NCBI RefSeq assembly: GCF_001882345.1 | Contig: NZ_MINL01000001.1 | Span: 1,195,008-1,259,007 of the forward strand | DNA from: Halomonas sp. QHL1 | GTDB taxonomy: Bacteria > Pseudomonadota > Gammaproteobacteria > Pseudomonadales > Halomonadaceae | Reading direction: 5' to 3' | Length of the DNA: 64,000 bases | Shown here: positions 23,915 to 29,330 of the stretch, one piece after another | How the letters are laid out: every line of letters begins with the position of its first letter | Position numbering within the stretch: the first letter of the stretch is position 1 | Made by a program: the position numbers and the translations under genes | The notes under the pieces: model-generated | What the model saw: the letters and a program-made list of their open reading frames with translations, nothing else | The model's database searches: none | Told to the model about the DNA's origin: nothing

Positions 23915-24766
23915 TTAACGGTTTTTCAAACGGCGGGATGAATAATACCAGCCTGTGACAAGCCCCACGAGTAGACCGCCCAAATGTGCTTCATTAGCGA
24001 CATTGCCAAAGCCAACGCTGCCCGCCATATCGGTCATGGTAAACACCATCCAGCCGAGCATAAATACCACCAGCATTTGCGGTACAAAGAAGCCACTTTG
24101 GGGAACCCGGCGTGACATCAACCAAACGTGGGCCAATAAGGCATAAACCACCCCCGACATACCGCCGAATAGCACGGTGCCGGTTGCATACTGCGCCACA
24201 TTAGCGCCAATGCCCGCCACAATAAGCAGCAGTAGCATGGTGCGGCTGCCCTGCAGTGCTTCAATCTGGCGCCCGAAATACCACACCCACATCAGGTTGA
24301 ATATTAAATGCATCCAGCCGAAGTGCAGAAAAGCGGGCGATAGCAAGCGCCATACTTGCCCAGAGGTAAGTGTTTGCGACAGATTGCCAAAGACCAACTC
24401 ACCACCTGAAATACCTATAGGCACGATGGTTAGAGTGACAATCAACTGGTCACCAAAAATACCAATCAGGGCAAATATCACTAAACTAATCACGATCATC
24501 AACGCCGTAACCGGCACTTGCTTTAGCGATGCCAAGGAGTTGGTCATGGTACGCGGTCGCTGAGCAGTCTGTTGAAGCACCAGGGGTTCACCCTGCTGCC
24601 AGCGCTCTAGCAGTGCTTTAAGTTCGTTAAGCTGGCGTGGGTCGGCGATCCAGAGCAGTTGACCGTCCACTTCATCGGTAATGCGGTGACCAATGCGATG
24701 GCGCCAGAGTGCCTGGCGCAGTTCGCTCGTATCCGCGTGATCGGGCAGAAGCATCACTGGATGCAT
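23915..24766 (-). CDS. glpG: Rhomboid intramembrane serine protease
   Basis: This is an inner-membrane protease that cleaves helices within the bilayer. It has 283 residues. A cytosolic N-terminal domain (about 1-70) precedes six membrane helices. The catalytic dyad is Ser-204 in GGMSGVVYALLAH and His-261 in NEAHLGGLLVG. The layout matches GlpG of E. coli, including the N-terminal domain, but the usual glpE/glpR neighbours are absent. A candidate small RNA or terminator lies between this gene and the phosphoesterase gene upstream. Confidence 0.93.
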   Translation of the reverse strand: MHPVMLLPDHADTSELRQALWRHRIGHRITDEVDGQLLWIADPRQLNELKALLERWQQGEPLVLQQTAQRPRTMTNSLASLKQVPVTALMIVISLVIFALIGIFGDQLIVTLTIVPIGISGGELVFGNLSQTLTSGQVWRLLSPAFLHFGWMHLIFNLMWVWYFGRQIEALQGSRTMLLLLIVAGIGANVAQYATGTVLFGGMSGVVYALLAHVWLMSRRVPQSGFFVPQMLVVFMLGWMVFTMTDMAGSVGFGNVANEAHLGGLLVGLVTGWYYSSRRLKNR

Positions 24767-24864: not shown

Positions 24865-24892
24865 AAAAAAAACCGGCGGTGGGGACCGCCGG
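24865..24892 (-). terminator. Intrinsic terminator (minus strand)
   Basis: An 8-bp GC-rich stem (24892-24885 with 24880-24873) is closed by a CCCC loop and followed on the minus strand by eight T. It ends either candidate sRNA A or the transcript of the phosphoesterase gene. Confidence 0.85.
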
Positions 24893-24965
24893 GGAATAAA
24901 AGCAAGGGATCATTCAAGGGAACACTTACTCTGATAGCCGACAGCAGGGTTAGTTCAGCCGTTTT
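24865..24965 (-). ncRNA. Candidate sRNA A
   Basis: Read on the minus strand, the segment ends in a strong intrinsic terminator: CCGGCGGT-CCCC-ACCGCCGG (24892-24873) then eight T (24872-24865). Just before it is TGATCCCTTGCTT (24912-24900), identical over 13 bases to candidate sRNA B. The 5' end is set only roughly, downstream of a very AT-rich stretch (24961-25004). It could be an independent RNA, or the 3' end of the phosphoesterase transcript, whose stop is 40 bases upstream. UCCCUU is complementary to AAGGGA-type ribosome sites. Confidence 0.5.
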
Positions 24966-25004
24966 GAAAAAAATATGTAATTTTATGTAAAAAATTAATT
25001 TTTA

Positions 25005-25991
25005 TTAATCGAAATCGATTTCCCACGGTTTCGGCAATGCCCGTTCCTCTTTCGGTACTTTAATCCACACAAAATGATCGGCATTTAACACCGTCTCACC
25101 ACTCCATCGATAGGCCACTAAACGCCCATATTTGACGGCACTATAGTCCAGGCAGGCAATATTATGGGTCGGTAGCGCCGGTATGCCTTCACACCAGTAG
25201 TGACCGATAAACAGCGGTGGTTGCTCTGGCCCGTAGTAGCTAAGTTTCTGGCGCTCTTCATTGGTCAATTCGCGCGTTTCAAGATCCCCGGGCAAGTTAT
25301 CCGGCTGGAAGACCACATCACCCCATTGCTGGGGTTCCTGGGCCCAGAAGTGGGCGCGAAAACTTTGTCTTGTAAAGCCATCACCGGAGTGTATCGCAAT
25401 ACCCTTGGGTAGTGAGACATGCGGGCCTCGGGTGAGGCGGTCTAAAATTCGAAACGCCTGGGTTTTGGGGTCGGTGGACTCAATCAAAAACTGCGTGTCC
25501 ATGCAGCAATCAGGGCGGCGCTGTTTCAGCTCTTCAATCAGCGCCTCATCCCAGCAGGCATGCACCACGCGAATACCGTTGATTTCCAAACACAGCGGGA
25601 TGGTTTTAAACCACGCCAGGGTGTCGTCCCACTCGTTGGTATAGTCGCGATACTGCTCTAGGGTATCCTGAATAATACGATTATGCCGCGGCGTATGCTC
25701 GCGCAACCAGCGTACGTGGCTACCTGCGGGCCCAGGATGGGTATACGCCAGGGCGTTATATTCATGATTACCCATGACGATATACGCCTCACCCTGCTCG
25801 ACCATTCGCCGGGCAATGGTTACTGCCAGGCGAATCCGCGGGCCGCGATCAATCAGATCACCGAGAAAAATCACTTTGCGACGAGGGTGGCGATAGACGC
25901 CGTTGCGCTGATGGTAACCCAGCTTTTCCAGCAGTGAGGCCAGCGTAGCGCCGCAGCCGTGGACATCTCCAATGAGGTCGTATCCCTCCAT
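25005..25991 (-). CDS. Metallophosphoesterase (PrpE/ApaH-like)
   Basis: The protein has 328 residues from the ATG at 25991, with GGGGGA upstream. Calcineurin-like metal-binding motifs appear in order near the N-terminus: GDVHG (residues 8-12), FLGDLIDRGP and MGNHEYNA, with a further histidine in VHACWDE. The family includes protein phosphatases and bis(5'-nucleosyl)-tetraphosphatases; the substrate cannot be chosen from sequence. It starts 2 bases after the nadK stop, so the two are likely co-transcribed. An overlapping TTG at 25997 is an alternative start. Confidence 0.85.
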   Translation of the reverse strand: MEGYDLIGDVHGCGATLASLLEKLGYHQRNGVYRHPRRKVIFLGDLIDRGPRIRLAVTIARRMVEQGEAYIVMGNHEYNALAYTHPGPAGSHVRWLREHTPRHNRIIQDTLEQYRDYTNEWDDTLAWFKTIPLCLEINGIRVVHACWDEALIEELKQRRPDCCMDTQFLIESTDPKTQAFRILDRLTRGPHVSLPKGIAIHSGDGFTRQSFRAHFWAQEPQQWGDVVFQPDNLPGDLETRELTNEERQKLSYYGPEQPPLFIGHYWCEGIPALPTHNIACLDYSAVKYGRLVAYRWSGETVLNADHFVWIKVPKEERALPKPWEIDFD

Positions 25992-25993
25992 GC

Positions 25994-26968
25994 TCAATCC
26001 CCCAACCGATGGCTCCAGCCTAACTTGCTGCGCAGCACTTCGTAGAAATTATGGCCGATGGGATGCACCAGCTGGACACGTTCAGGCTTACGGGTAATCA
26101 CCAGCACATCGTTGGGTTTGGCCACCGCTCGGGTTTGCCCATCGCAACTGATATGCGGGTAGGACTGGTTGGTTTCACCAATGTGAATACGTATTTCGCT
26201 GGCGGCATCGATCACAATGGGGCGACTCGACAGCGTATGGGGGAACATCGGCACCAGCGTCACGACATCAAGTTTGGGGTGCATAATCGGCCCGCCGCCA
26301 GAGAGCGCGTAGGCCGTAGAGCCGGTGGGAGTGGCCACAATCAAGCCATCGCTGCGCTGGCTATACACAAACTGGCCATCAATAAACAGCTCAAACTCTA
26401 TCATGCGAACCGCTTTACCGGGGTGCAGCACGACTTCGTTCAAGGCGTCGCCATTACCCACGGCAACGCCATTACGGTAGAGCACGGTATCGAGTAAAAA
26501 ACGCTCTTCAACCTCAAACTCCCCCGCCAGCACTTCACTGACGCGGGTTTCCAACTCATCTGGAGAGATATCGGTCAAAAACCCCAGGCGGCCCCGATTA
26601 ACGCCTAAAATCAGTGTACCGCTCCGGCATAGCGCCCGCGCAGCGCCCAATAGACTGCCATCGCCCCCTACCACAATCACCAGATCACACAGCTCACCCA
26701 GCATGCGGCGGCTGGCTTCCGGTTGGCCGTGGTGCGGTAAAACGGTAGCGGTGCGGTCTTCCATCAATACCGAGTAGTCATGGGCTGTAAGGTAGGTCAC
26801 GAGGCGCTGAAGAGAGTCGACCACTTTGTCACTCCCCAGGCGACCAATCAGCCCAATGGTTTTAAAGGGTCTGCTTGGTCGATCACTGGGGGGGGAAACA
26901 GTCCCTGACTTAGCGTCTGCTGATAAGGTGTTGCTCATGGGCCGACTCTCGCTAACATAAGTCGCCAT
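25994..26968 (-). CDS. nadK: NAD kinase
   Basis: This enzyme phosphorylates NAD to NADP with ATP or polyphosphate. It has 324 residues, a little longer than the usual 290-300, because of an N-terminal tail of about 35 residues before FKTIGLIGR. The catalytic motif GGDGS is at 101-105, and LGVNRGRLGFLTD and GDALNEVVLHPG follow. The ATG at 26968 has GAGGTG upstream; an internal ATG at 26938 is possible and would remove part of the tail. The phosphoesterase gene is coupled downstream. Confidence 0.95.
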   Translation of the reverse strand: MATYVSESRPMSNTLSADAKSGTVSPPSDRPSRPFKTIGLIGRLGSDKVVDSLQRLVTYLTAHDYSVLMEDRTATVLPHHGQPEASRRMLGELCDLVIVVGGDGSLLGAARALCRSGTLILGVNRGRLGFLTDISPDELETRVSEVLAGEFEVEERFLLDTVLYRNGVAVGNGDALNEVVLHPGKAVRMIEFELFIDGQFVYSQRSDGLIVATPTGSTAYALSGGGPIMHPKLDVVTLVPMFPHTLSSRPIVIDAASEIRIHIGETNQSYPHISCDGQTRAVAKPNDVLVITRKPERVQLVHPIGHNFYEVLRSKLGWSHRLGD

Positions 26969-27001
26969 TATGGGGACACCTCAGCTATCGGGCAAATAGG
27001 C

Positions 27002-27871
27002 TTAGCCAACGGCTACCTGACGACGCTGGCACCACCAGTGGTTGAGCCATAGGGAGGCTGCCATGATAAGTGCACCCAACAGAAGGCGAGGAATATCCGC
27101 ATCGCGGTTCCAAATCACTAGATTGACGATTAGCCCGGCCGGTACCAGCGCATTATTCATAATCGCCAAGGTGCCTGCATCCACTTTGGTGGCGCCCTGG
27201 TTCCATGCAAAATAGCCTACGCCAGACGCCACTAGCCCCAACCATGCAAGTACGCCCCATTGTAGTGACGTGGTCGGCAGTGCCGCGCTGTTACCAAAGA
27301 GTAAATAGGTGGGCAGGGCCACGGCCATCGCGCCAATAAAAAACCAGCCAAACACGTTGTGCCAAGCCAGGGTGGGAGGTAAGTCAGCGGCTAAACGACG
27401 ATAGCCTACTTGGCCAAGCGCGAAACAGAGGTTGGCCCCCTGCACGACTAAAAAGCCTGCCCAGAAACCGCTATCAACACCGTCATAGCGAATAACCCCT
27501 GCCCCGACTACAGCGAGCAGCGCGGTCACAATATAGATCGGCGTGAAGCGCCCAAACAGCAGATCATCCAGTAGCGCGATATAAATAGGCGTAAAAATAG
27601 TGAACAGCAGTACTTCTGGTACCGACAGCAGCAAAAAGGATTGATAGAAGAAGGTGTACATTACCCCCAACTGTATGGCGCCTAAACCCATTAACGCGAG
27701 CCGCTGCTTGCCACGCAGCAGGCTGGGGCGTAAAAAAGGCAAAAACACGAGCGTAGCAAGCGTTACCCGCAGCAGCACCGCAAAGTAGCTATCCACCTGC
27801 CCCGCCAAATACACCCCTATCAGCGAAAAGGAGAAGGCCCATAGGGCAGTGACGCCGATCAGATAACCCAT
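27002..27871 (-). CDS. EamA-family (DMT) permease
   Basis: This 289-residue inner-membrane protein has about ten hydrophobic helices arranged as two EamA repeats, the normal layout of drug/metabolite transporters. The substrate is not known; family members export amino acids, sugars, polyamines or drugs. It stands in the same direction as nadK, 33 bases upstream of it, but may have its own promoter. The region upstream (27872-27959) separates it from the Pmp3-type gene on the same strand. Confidence 0.88.
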   Translation of the reverse strand: MGYLIGVTALWAFSFSLIGVYLAGQVDSYFAVLLRVTLATLVFLPFLRPSLLRGKQRLALMGLGAIQLGVMYTFFYQSFLLLSVPEVLLFTIFTPIYIALLDDLLFGRFTPIYIVTALLAVVGAGVIRYDGVDSGFWAGFLVVQGANLCFALGQVGYRRLAADLPPTLAWHNVFGWFFIGAMAVALPTYLLFGNSAALPTTSLQWGVLAWLGLVASGVGYFAWNQGATKVDAGTLAIMNNALVPAGLIVNLVIWNRDADIPRLLLGALIMAASLWLNHWWCQRRQVAVG

Positions 27872-27959
27872 CGTAAACCTCGCTTAATAAATTAGTTTAC
27901 GCGGATTATACGCACCTGGAGAAGGTTGCCAAGCAGTAAACGTCGTCTAACGTACTTAG

Positions 27960-28502
27960 TTAACGCTGCTGCAACCACCAACAAGCATACACAGCGCCGG
28001 GCAGCCAGCCCGCTAGTGTTAGTAGTACGGCTAATCCCACACGCTTACTTCCCCCTTGGGTTAAGCCCACTGCCAGCGGCGGCAGTAGTAAAGCCAGTGC
28101 ATAGTAGGCGATTTTTAACGCCCCAGACTCCGGTACAGTTTGCTCCGCTCGCTGCGCAGGGGACGCTTTAGGTGAAGTGACCTGGGCAGTTGGTTCAACT
28201 TTTGGAGGCGGAGTGAAGTGCTCCACTGAACTGGAGGCTGGCTCAGCCGCGGCCTTAGCTGCCCGCTCTTGGGCAAGCCGATGGGCCTCTTTATGAATTT
28301 TTTGCTCTAAGGTTTCAGCCCCTTCAGCAAGATCATCGTGGTGGCGTTCCCAATCCTCCCAATCGTGAGGCGTCCCCGATTTCGGTCGTTGATGCCCGGA
28401 ACCACGCGCACGCTCCCAGGCTTTCTCTTCCAAGGTGTTGGGCCGGTCAGGGTCTCGGTCAACCCCCACCCCTTTGCGGTTTAAATACTCACGTGCATCC
28501 AT
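27960..28502 (-). CDS. Pmp3/YqaE-type membrane protein with long N-terminal extension
   Basis: The C-terminal about 55 residues fit the Pmp3/YqaE/UPF0057 family: ALALLLPPLAVGLTQGG, then VAVLLTLAGWLPGAVYA-like second helix ending WWLQQ. Family members are usually 50-60 residues and respond to salt or membrane stress. Here about 125 hydrophilic residues precede this part. They are rich in acidic and basic residues, with a probable coiled-coil at about 60-90 and a proline-rich stretch at 105-125. The role of the extension is unknown. It would face the cytoplasm. Confidence 0.78.
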   Translation of the reverse strand: MDAREYLNRKGVGVDRDPDRPNTLEEKAWERARGSGHQRPKSGTPHDWEDWERHHDDLAEGAETLEQKIHKEAHRLAQERAAKAAAEPASSSVEHFTPPPKVEPTAQVTSPKASPAQRAEQTVPESGALKIAYYALALLLPPLAVGLTQGGSKRVGLAVLLTLAGWLPGAVYACWWLQQR

Positions 28503-28740
28503 AGGAGGCTCCTCAATGCGATAATTTTCGGTTCATTTGAATGATTAGAAAATTAACGGCTTAGAAAATTCAGTACTTACAGCGTTGAATAAAGATGCTC
28601 TGCAGGCAGAGCACGGCCTTTTAAATCGCCTACAGTGAAAGAGTCGATGCTACTTTAGCACCTAGAGACAACTGATCAGATCGCTTTGCTTGCGATGCCC
28701 TGCTTGCCATAGCGATGAATAAGATGAGCAAGGAGTGTCC

Positions 28741-29151
28741 ATGATGAATAGAGCAACCCCCAACGTCGTTCGCGATATCATGTCCCGCGATTGCTACCGT
28801 GTCTCGCCCAATGCCTCAGTCACAACTTTGGCTAAAGGCCTGGCACTGCACCGTCTACCTGGCGCACCGGTAGTTGATGATGCTGATCGTTTAATTGGCT
28901 TTATTTCAGAGCAGGATGTCATGGGCCGTGTGCTGGACAGTATTTACCATGATGACGAAGCCCCCTTGGTGAAAGAAATGATGCGCCACGAAGTGCTCAG
29001 CGTCTCTCCCAATAAAAGCATTACCGACTTGGCCCAGGAGATGCTTGGCTCTAAACCCAAAGTTTACCCGGTGGTTGAGCAGCAGCGTCTAATAGGAATC
29101 GTGACACGACGTGATATCCTGGTGGCGCTACTGGCTATGCGGCGCCATTAG
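28741..29151 (+). CDS. CBS-domain pair protein
   Basis: This 136-residue protein consists almost wholly of two CBS domains (about 10-65 and 75-135): VRDIMSRDCYRVSPNASVTT with GAPVVDDADRLIGFISEQDV, then VKEMMRHEVLSVSPNKSIT with VYPVVEQQRLIGIVTRRDIL. Such pairs bind adenine nucleotides and sense energy state or act as small regulators. The ATG at 28741 follows AAGGAG; an ATG three bases later is equally possible. It stands alone. Its 3' end faces candidate sRNA B on the other strand. Confidence 0.88.
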   Translation: MMNRATPNVVRDIMSRDCYRVSPNASVTTLAKGLALHRLPGAPVVDDADRLIGFISEQDVMGRVLDSIYHDDEAPLVKEMMRHEVLSVSPNKSITDLAQEMLGSKPKVYPVVEQQRLIGIVTRRDILVALLAMRRH

Positions 29152-29200
29152 CAGAGCAGATGGACGTTTTGCTTAGATTCTCATTAGCTGAGCTTTAGAC

Positions 29201-29229
29201 AAAAAAAACCGCTACTCATGGAGTAGCGG
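29201..29229 (-). terminator. Intrinsic terminator of candidate sRNA B
   Basis: A perfect 9-bp stem (29229-29221 with 29217-29209) with a 3-base loop is followed on the minus strand by eight T. On the plus strand no T run follows, so it is not a terminator for the CBS gene. Confidence 0.85.
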
Positions 29230-29330
29230 AAGCAAGGGATCAAAACAATAGAGCCAGAACAACAACTTTAGCGACTGCTATCGCGATGTTGCCTGTACAT
29301 ACTCAGACACGCAGTGAAGAAAAAGTTCGC
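29201..29330 (-). ncRNA. Candidate sRNA B
   Basis: Read on the minus strand, a probable promoter (TTGACG at 29365-29360, a 17-base gap, TTTACT at 29342-29337) leads to an RNA of about 125-130 nt. It ends in CCGCTACTC-CAT-GAGTAGCGG (29229-29209) and eight T. TGATCCCTTGCTT (29242-29230) directly precedes the hairpin, identical over 13 bases to candidate sRNA A. No minus-strand gene lies upstream, so this terminator needs a transcript of its own. No good reading frame was seen in it. An Hfq-type regulator is a reasonable guess. Confidence 0.6.

Follow-up and report, generated by a model that had tools for sequence, protein, structure and literature searches.

Two candidate small RNA genes of the Halomonadaceae with sigma-E-type promoters, one bearing a nearly invariant pair of anti-Shine-Dalgarno motifs

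The minus strand of a 64-kb stretch of the Halomonas sp. QHL1 genome (contig NZ_MINL01000001.1, positions 1,195,008 to 1,259,007; hereafter the window) carries two predicted small RNA (sRNA) genes, which we call A and B. The predicted transcripts, taken from promoter to terminator, span 24865..24926 for A (~62 nt) and 29201..29298 for B (~96-98 nt), with starts placed from the promoters, that of A to within a few nucleotides. Sequence, promoter type, conservation, synteny and the statistics of seed matches were observed directly, and on this basis we consider it likely that A and B are separate sRNA genes, with unrelated bodies, that constitute a noncoding arm of the sigma-E envelope-stress response in Halomonadaceae.

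Attention was first drawn to the locus by a 13-nt sequence, TGATCCCTTGCTT, present at 24912-24900 in A and at 29242-29230 in B. The original prediction, made by a model from the letters of the window, proposed twin sRNAs sharing this element before strong terminators with eight T residues, and scans of the window and genome bear out the arrangement: a hairpin with T8 lies 3′ of each copy (24892-24873 in A, 29229-29209 in B). No further exact copy occurs in the window, and the whole 4.16-Mb genome holds only these two plus one copy with a single mismatch, which probably sits in the coding sequence of an integrase. By simple arithmetic, a given 13-mer is expected ~0.002 times on both strands of 64 kb. 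With two mismatches allowed there are four matches in the window, which is not unusual, as at least four were reached in 6 of 100 shuffles. We accept the observation as real because A and B are conserved across genomes of the genus. At E ≤ 0.001, similarity searches match the A region in 81 of the 82 genomes; for B the count is 79 of 82, some of these matches being partial. The expectation that 13-mer and hairpin would recur in relatives is supported. Third exact copies in relatives (n = 10, with 50 nt downstream inspected by eye) were dismissed as coincidental, since no terminator comes after any of them and several seem to lie in coding sequence.

The core of A, TGTTCCCTTGAATGATCCCTTGC (24902..24924, minus strand), is a 23-nt segment at the predicted 5′ end that begins within a few bases of the predicted start, holds two CCCUUG anti-Shine-Dalgarno (anti-SD) motifs and contains GUUCCCUUG and GAUCCCUUG. 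The element had rightly been described as C-rich and anti-SD-like; its 5′-terminal position in A, the second CCCUUG and the promoter type common to both genes are features absent from the original prediction. The predicted transcript has a fold z-score of −4.26, with both CCCUU units unpaired, and over 42 copies the core has a mean unpaired probability of 0.73 (lowest 0.66). The intrinsic terminator with T8 (24865..24892, minus strand) shows covariation in the same 42 copies, both sides of a pair having changed in 13 copies at columns 71-99, in six at 72-98 and in four at 80-93, while pair 72-98 is broken in eight copies.

Conservation of the core extends far beyond the genus. The 23 nucleotides are unchanged at all 89 A places of genus loci fetched by similarity, and at 109 of 109 when loci found via the 13-mer are included. 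Among copies of other genera found with a covariance model, 92 of 96 are exact (57 of 60 fetched copies and 35 of 36 further loci), a count in which lower-scoring copies are under-represented because the 60 were drawn from the best 150 of the model-match list. Each of the four inexact cores has a single change, which falls in the second CCCUUG in three of them and between the units in the other; the first CCCUUG is intact in all four. A scan for an exact 24-mer of A, which by design selects for exactness, finds it on at least 118 contigs of named genomes, and the matches listed include Halomonas, Vreelandella, Billgrantia, Salinicola, Kushneria, Chromohalobacter and Modicisalibacter, as well as Cobetia, Larsenimonas, Halotalea, Litchfieldella, Onishia and Aidingimonas. 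The covariance model matches 189 of 201 genomes of the family, representing 22 of 24 genera; the 12 genomes without a match belong to four genera (five in g24, five in g26, one each in g43 and g45). At least five of the 189 matches are weak (E 5e-6 to 0.008; G119, G153, G165, G182 and G189), and among these the G189 sequence and the half-length G165 match do not look like members. At the level of the order, searched with strict filters that may have missed weak matches, 26 of 293 genomes match. Twelve of these belong to the same family (84-105 bits), and the other 14 (21.6-30.6 bits, in seven cases with only the second half of the model matched) were not counted as members.

The setting of A is also conserved. 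Upstream lies a metallophosphoesterase gene (25005..25997, minus strand; PF00149), found near A on the same strand in all 102 of the named loci whose flank is long enough (16 lacked it), and downstream lies a rhomboid protease gene (23915..24766, minus strand; PF01694/PF16733), found likewise in 108 of 108 (10 lacked the flank). The predicted start of A is 79 nt downstream of the metallophosphoesterase gene, and read-through could reach it, which raises the prospect that A and B are 3′-untranslated-region terminators or attenuator remnants of upstream genes. We consider this very improbable. As originally noted, B has no gene upstream on its strand: the open reading frame (ORF) list shows no likely one close by, and the flanking genes are on the plus strand; A and B each have their own conserved promoter boxes; and paralogues of A at other loci carry promoter and core together. 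These boxes and the conservation of the predicted transcripts support the view that each is an sRNA gene of its own.

The paralogues are A-like genes at other loci in other genera (L345-L348, L356 and L362-L366), which by their coordinates include tandem pairs on G210:C3 and G190:C6. All ten inspected keep the promoter boxes. Their cores are exact in four cases, carry one change in four, three changes in one and five in another, and neither the sequence after the core nor the terminator is that of A. The core appears to behave as a portable module. Separately, a divergent genus of the family (L357, L358) has a candidate sRNA in which a GAACTT-type promoter and GATCCCT are preserved but the first CCCUUG is altered (TTTCCTCATGATGATCCCT and similar). 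In a genome of another family (L332, G453, 1500-1600), two UUUCCCUU motifs precede a terminator in an RNA-like unit, which matches the anti-hemB and MicC models weakly and below cut-off.

The promoter boxes of both genes are of the sigma-E/AlgU type. Upstream of A are a −35 box GAACTA (24951..24956, minus strand), whose wider consensus is GAACTT, and a −10 box TCAGA (24930..24934, minus strand), whose T and C are invariant in the 42-sequence alignment. Upstream of B are GAACTT (29323..29328, minus strand), invariant in an alignment of members chosen with a near-match to it, and TCTGA (29303..29307, minus strand). The layouts, GAACTA-N16-TCAGA for A and GAACTT-N15-TCTGA for B, have conserved boxes and variable spacers, and the boxes agree with the AlgU consensus GAACTT-N16/17-TCTNN given in PMC7641640. 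On both strands of the window, GAACT[TA]-N15-17-TCNGA occurs only at 29328 (minus) before B and at 24956 (minus) before A. This pattern was written after both sites had been seen, and ~0.7 sites are expected by chance (arithmetic); the promoter case therefore rests on conservation. GAAC with a correctly spaced TCNNA precedes 146 of 155 distinct A copies, those from named genomes having been selected by the core alone, versus 1 of 3,100 shuffled upstream sequences; by this strict test, 52 of the 60 copies fetched from other genera with the model also qualify. For B, GAACTT-N15-TCNNA is present in 73 of 74 distinct genus copies and in all 13 others; because the copies were chosen with a near-match to the −35 box, only the −10 box and the spacing, which were unused in that choice, count as independent evidence. 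The sigma-70 promoter TTGACG/TTTACT first suggested for B did not survive comparison, as TTGACG is present in only 12 and a sigma-70-like pair in 11 of the 74 distinct genus copies, and the pair is not among the sites listed by a simple promoter scan of the window.

The genome encodes a single RpoE above the family cut-off (TIGR02939, 305.6 bits versus 236). Two further weak sigma-factor matches are present, and a MicA-like sRNA of Bordetella pertussis appears to be independent of RpoE according to PMC12235514. These points leave some room for another extracytoplasmic function sigma factor with related boxes to read the promoters, in which case the RNAs would answer a different signal; given that boxes and spacing fit the AlgU/sigma-E consensus and that one gene alone exceeds the RpoE cut-off, we judge this improbable. 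A Rho-independent terminator with a U tail, expected for the class of sigma-E-dependent envelope sRNAs, is present in both A and B, and each sRNA also appears to possess the sigma-E-type promoter by which this class is recognized.

B has a different architecture. A two-stem element (29255..29295, minus strand) is followed by the 13-mer (29230..29242) and the T8 terminator (29201..29229). Read from the alignments, the letters in both arms of the terminator stem vary among relatives. In the DNA the outer stem is CAGGCAACA with TGTTG-T-TCTG and the inner hairpin GCGA-TAGCAG-TCGC; in the RNA, CAGG-CAACA paired with UGUUG-U-UCUG would enclose the GCGA/UCGC hairpin. The fold z-scores are −2.97 and −2.84 for two assumed starts. 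Alignments were built from 35 picked B sequences: the first (A2) omitted two over-long sequences and L052, A3 omitted six with insertions or misaligned ends, and A4 three more, and six B matches failed the motif filter. Pairing was counted after the RNAalifold register had been replaced by one read by hand. In 26 sequences, 91.5% of cells in the two-stem element are paired, compared with 28-48% when the partner is slid by 1-3 columns, and four pairs have changed on both sides, a number reached by 13 of 500 shuffles. In some species (L143, L144, L145, L151, L152 and L155), ~10-60 nt are inserted in or after the stem element. B converges with a CBS-domain gene (28735..29151, plus strand; PF00571). 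Of the 25 named loci that extend 300 nt or more past this gene, 23 contain B. In most genus genomes A and B are ~3.9-4.4 kb apart by eye, with larger distances in, for example, G030, G073 and G078.

The idea of twins with related bodies is not supported. Of 74 distinct genus copies of B, 64 carry the anti-SD stretch GATCCCTTGCTT unchanged, as do none of 13 copies from other named-genome loci, which makes the 13-mer of B a lineage-limited feature. Beyond the genus it gives way to degenerate forms such as GATCCTTTGCC, GATCTTGCC and GATCGCATCTTGG while the stem element is kept. We therefore rejected the 13-mer as the defining element of B; it is confined to the genus, and the two-stem element is the deeper constraint. 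The body fragments that A and B had seemed to share do not correspond either, as GCTGTCG of A is promoter spacer outside the RNA, and GCAGTCG of B lies inside the hairpin.

The decay toward GATCCTTTGCC and GATCTTGCC beside a persistent stem, together with the placement of the 13-mer of B directly before the terminator, would suit a model in which both genes are sigma-E-driven and the C-rich stretch mainly binds protein, or belongs to an Hfq or terminator module, rather than acting as an mRNA seed. C-rich RNAs that act as sponges for RNA-binding proteins exist. We think this model unlikely, because 23 nucleotides of A are almost unchanged across genera, which is more than a short protein motif needs, because the A paralogues retain most of the core and vary in the stretch that separates it from the terminator, and because the complement of the core is enriched before start codons.

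The evidence for this enrichment, which bears on A as a putative translational repressor, is as follows. CAAGGGA is found twice in the complement of the core. The genome holds 53 instances of CAAGGGA-N3-12-ATG versus 16 of the reversed pattern, whereas TAAGGGA, a comparison ribosome site otherwise equal to CAAGGGA, gives 32 versus 32 (p 0.001 for the difference). All of the 53 matches but one inside a probable integrase were inspected; two pairs overlap, and 26 ORFs of at least 100 amino acids resulted, while 30 of the 32 TAAGGGA matches were inspected and gave 14 ORFs. By a simple rule, 11 of the 26 CAAGGGA ORFs are secreted, compared with 41 of 315 Shine-Dalgarno (SD)-preceded genes in 464 kb sampled from this genome (p 0.0005), and after curation by hand 9 of 26 are (p 0.007). 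The secreted set includes two TonB-dependent receptors, a Phenol_MetA-type outer-membrane protein (Pfam), a barrel-like protein that matches no Pfam family and three proteins whose starts are lipobox-like. Contiguous complementarity to A extends to 11 nt in two cases, one TonB receptor (AGCAAGGGATC) and the barrel-like gene (ATTCAAGGGAA). Of 16 barrel-like homologues whose start region was inspected (the gene itself included, and some being fragments or distant), 8 keep CAAGGGA, as do 8 of 11 homologues of a lipoprotein pair, two of them its own members. Two paralogous lipobox-bearing proteins (L402, L403 and L448 loci) have CAAGGGAA ribosome sites, and the start of the gene following one of them is preceded by TAAGGGAACAC, which matches A over 10 nt.

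Upstream of rpoE (L287, G000:C1:329096-332659) we observed a 27-codon leader ORF whose ribosome site, CCAAGGGA, is complementary to A and lies 95 nt upstream of the rpoE start. As the TGA of the leader directly precedes the ATG of rpoE, the latter looks translationally coupled to the leader, an arrangement reminiscent of rseD of E. coli. A literature search for an rseD-like rpoE leader found no paper. A more ambitious scheme can be sketched, in which the 23-nt segment would be a family-wide twin anti-SD "off code" that places CAAGGGA sites under A, recurs as a portable module in extra, at times tandem, sRNA genes of other genera with new terminators, and feeds back through CCAAGGGA of the rpoE leader ORF. 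We offer this as a tentative extension that is on balance doubtful.

The mechanism we favor, a sigma-E noncoding arm formed by A and B, can be described as follows. RNA polymerase with sigma-E/AlgU (RpoE) would transcribe both genes. A would start at, or within a few bases of, its near-invariant 23-nt stretch and present two unpaired CCCUU units for pairing with CAAGGGA SD regions of mRNAs, many of them for outer-membrane barrels, TonB receptors and lipoproteins, perhaps with the help of Hfq. Translation of these mRNAs would fall once envelope stress frees RpoE. B (~97 nt) would be induced alongside A with its conserved two-stem element, and in this genus it may have acquired or kept the anti-SD stretch before the terminator.

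Several observations weigh against parts of this mechanism. The lowest-energy fold of B in this species differs from the comparative structure, which for this reason is supported but falls short of proof. The fold predicted for A has the segment that separates the CCCUU units paired with bases before the terminator. The seed-match enrichment could come partly from SD preference, and the secreted fraction among CAAGGGA ORFs does not differ significantly from that among TAAGGGA ORFs (11 of 26 versus 3 of 14, p 0.17). The secretion rule itself errs: of its 11 positives, L398 and L414 are evident false ones and L399 is an AsmA protein, whereas L392 was missed, which gives the curated 9 of 26. The distribution of candidate targets is patchy, with matches to the barrel-like protein in 22 and to the lipoprotein in 10 of the 82 genus genomes, so these genes cannot explain the constancy of the core, which would need many targets, or universal ones beyond those found. 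Finally, a scan for a strict sigma-E site upstream of rpoE found none; a looser GAACTA-N17-TCAGC is present, 294 nt before the rpoE ATG and 210 nt before the leader ORF.

Rfam 15 gives no match at gathering score anywhere in the window, in keeping with the statement that the family was not recognized, and only sub-threshold matches occur in the window and in relatives. MicA and RybB are among the Rfam families. The best reading is that A and B would work like MicA, RybB and ErsA, judged by their parts, while matching no family of Rfam 15. RybB has its seed near the 5′ end, as the core of A lies at the predicted 5′ end, and ErsA is ~130 nt long. MicA, RybB and MicL of E. coli and Salmonella are sigma-E-dependent and act mainly on outer-membrane proteins and the lipoprotein Lpp, according to PMC11005410. 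Like A and B, they are several sRNAs under one type of sigma-E promoter; A differs in lacking an Rfam match at gathering score and in having two repeated CCCUUG units that would be aimed at SD sequences. ErsA of Pseudomonas aeruginosa is described in PMC5819304 as AlgU-dependent and as lowering translation of the porin mRNA oprD. It resembles A and B in the AlgU-type control predicted for them, and is set apart by the lack of a linking Rfam match rather than by direct sequence comparison. Pairs of sigma-E-dependent sRNAs with shared envelope targets, VrrA/MicV in Vibrio and FoxI/FoxJ in Fusobacterium, are also reported in PMC11005410; they belong to other lineages and are likened to A and B by description, the targets of A being predicted. 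A short pyrimidine-rich stretch before the terminator makes A copies recurrently, if weakly, similar to mmgR/suhB (RF00519), and kinship was rejected at 20.3 bits in the window and at most 24.8 in relatives against a gathering score of 41. The similarity probably reflects composition, because a B copy (L134) also matches weakly (23.0 bits).

Searches of the open-access literature for Halomonas sRNAs or Hfq, RpoE/AlgU, transcript mapping and the letters of the core found no paper on these RNAs among those listed, and the 17-letter core appears in none of the 15 papers listed, out of 334, for the core letters. Two of the Halomonas sRNA papers listed concern engineered sRNAs on a Pseudomonas PrrF1 scaffold in H. 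bluephagenesis. If the proposed roles are correct, A and B would give a salt-tolerant, industrially used bacterial family a native noncoding arm of its sigma-E response. The CAAGGGA seed rule would then predict targets, and A would offer a simple native scaffold of 62 nt with two anti-SD units.

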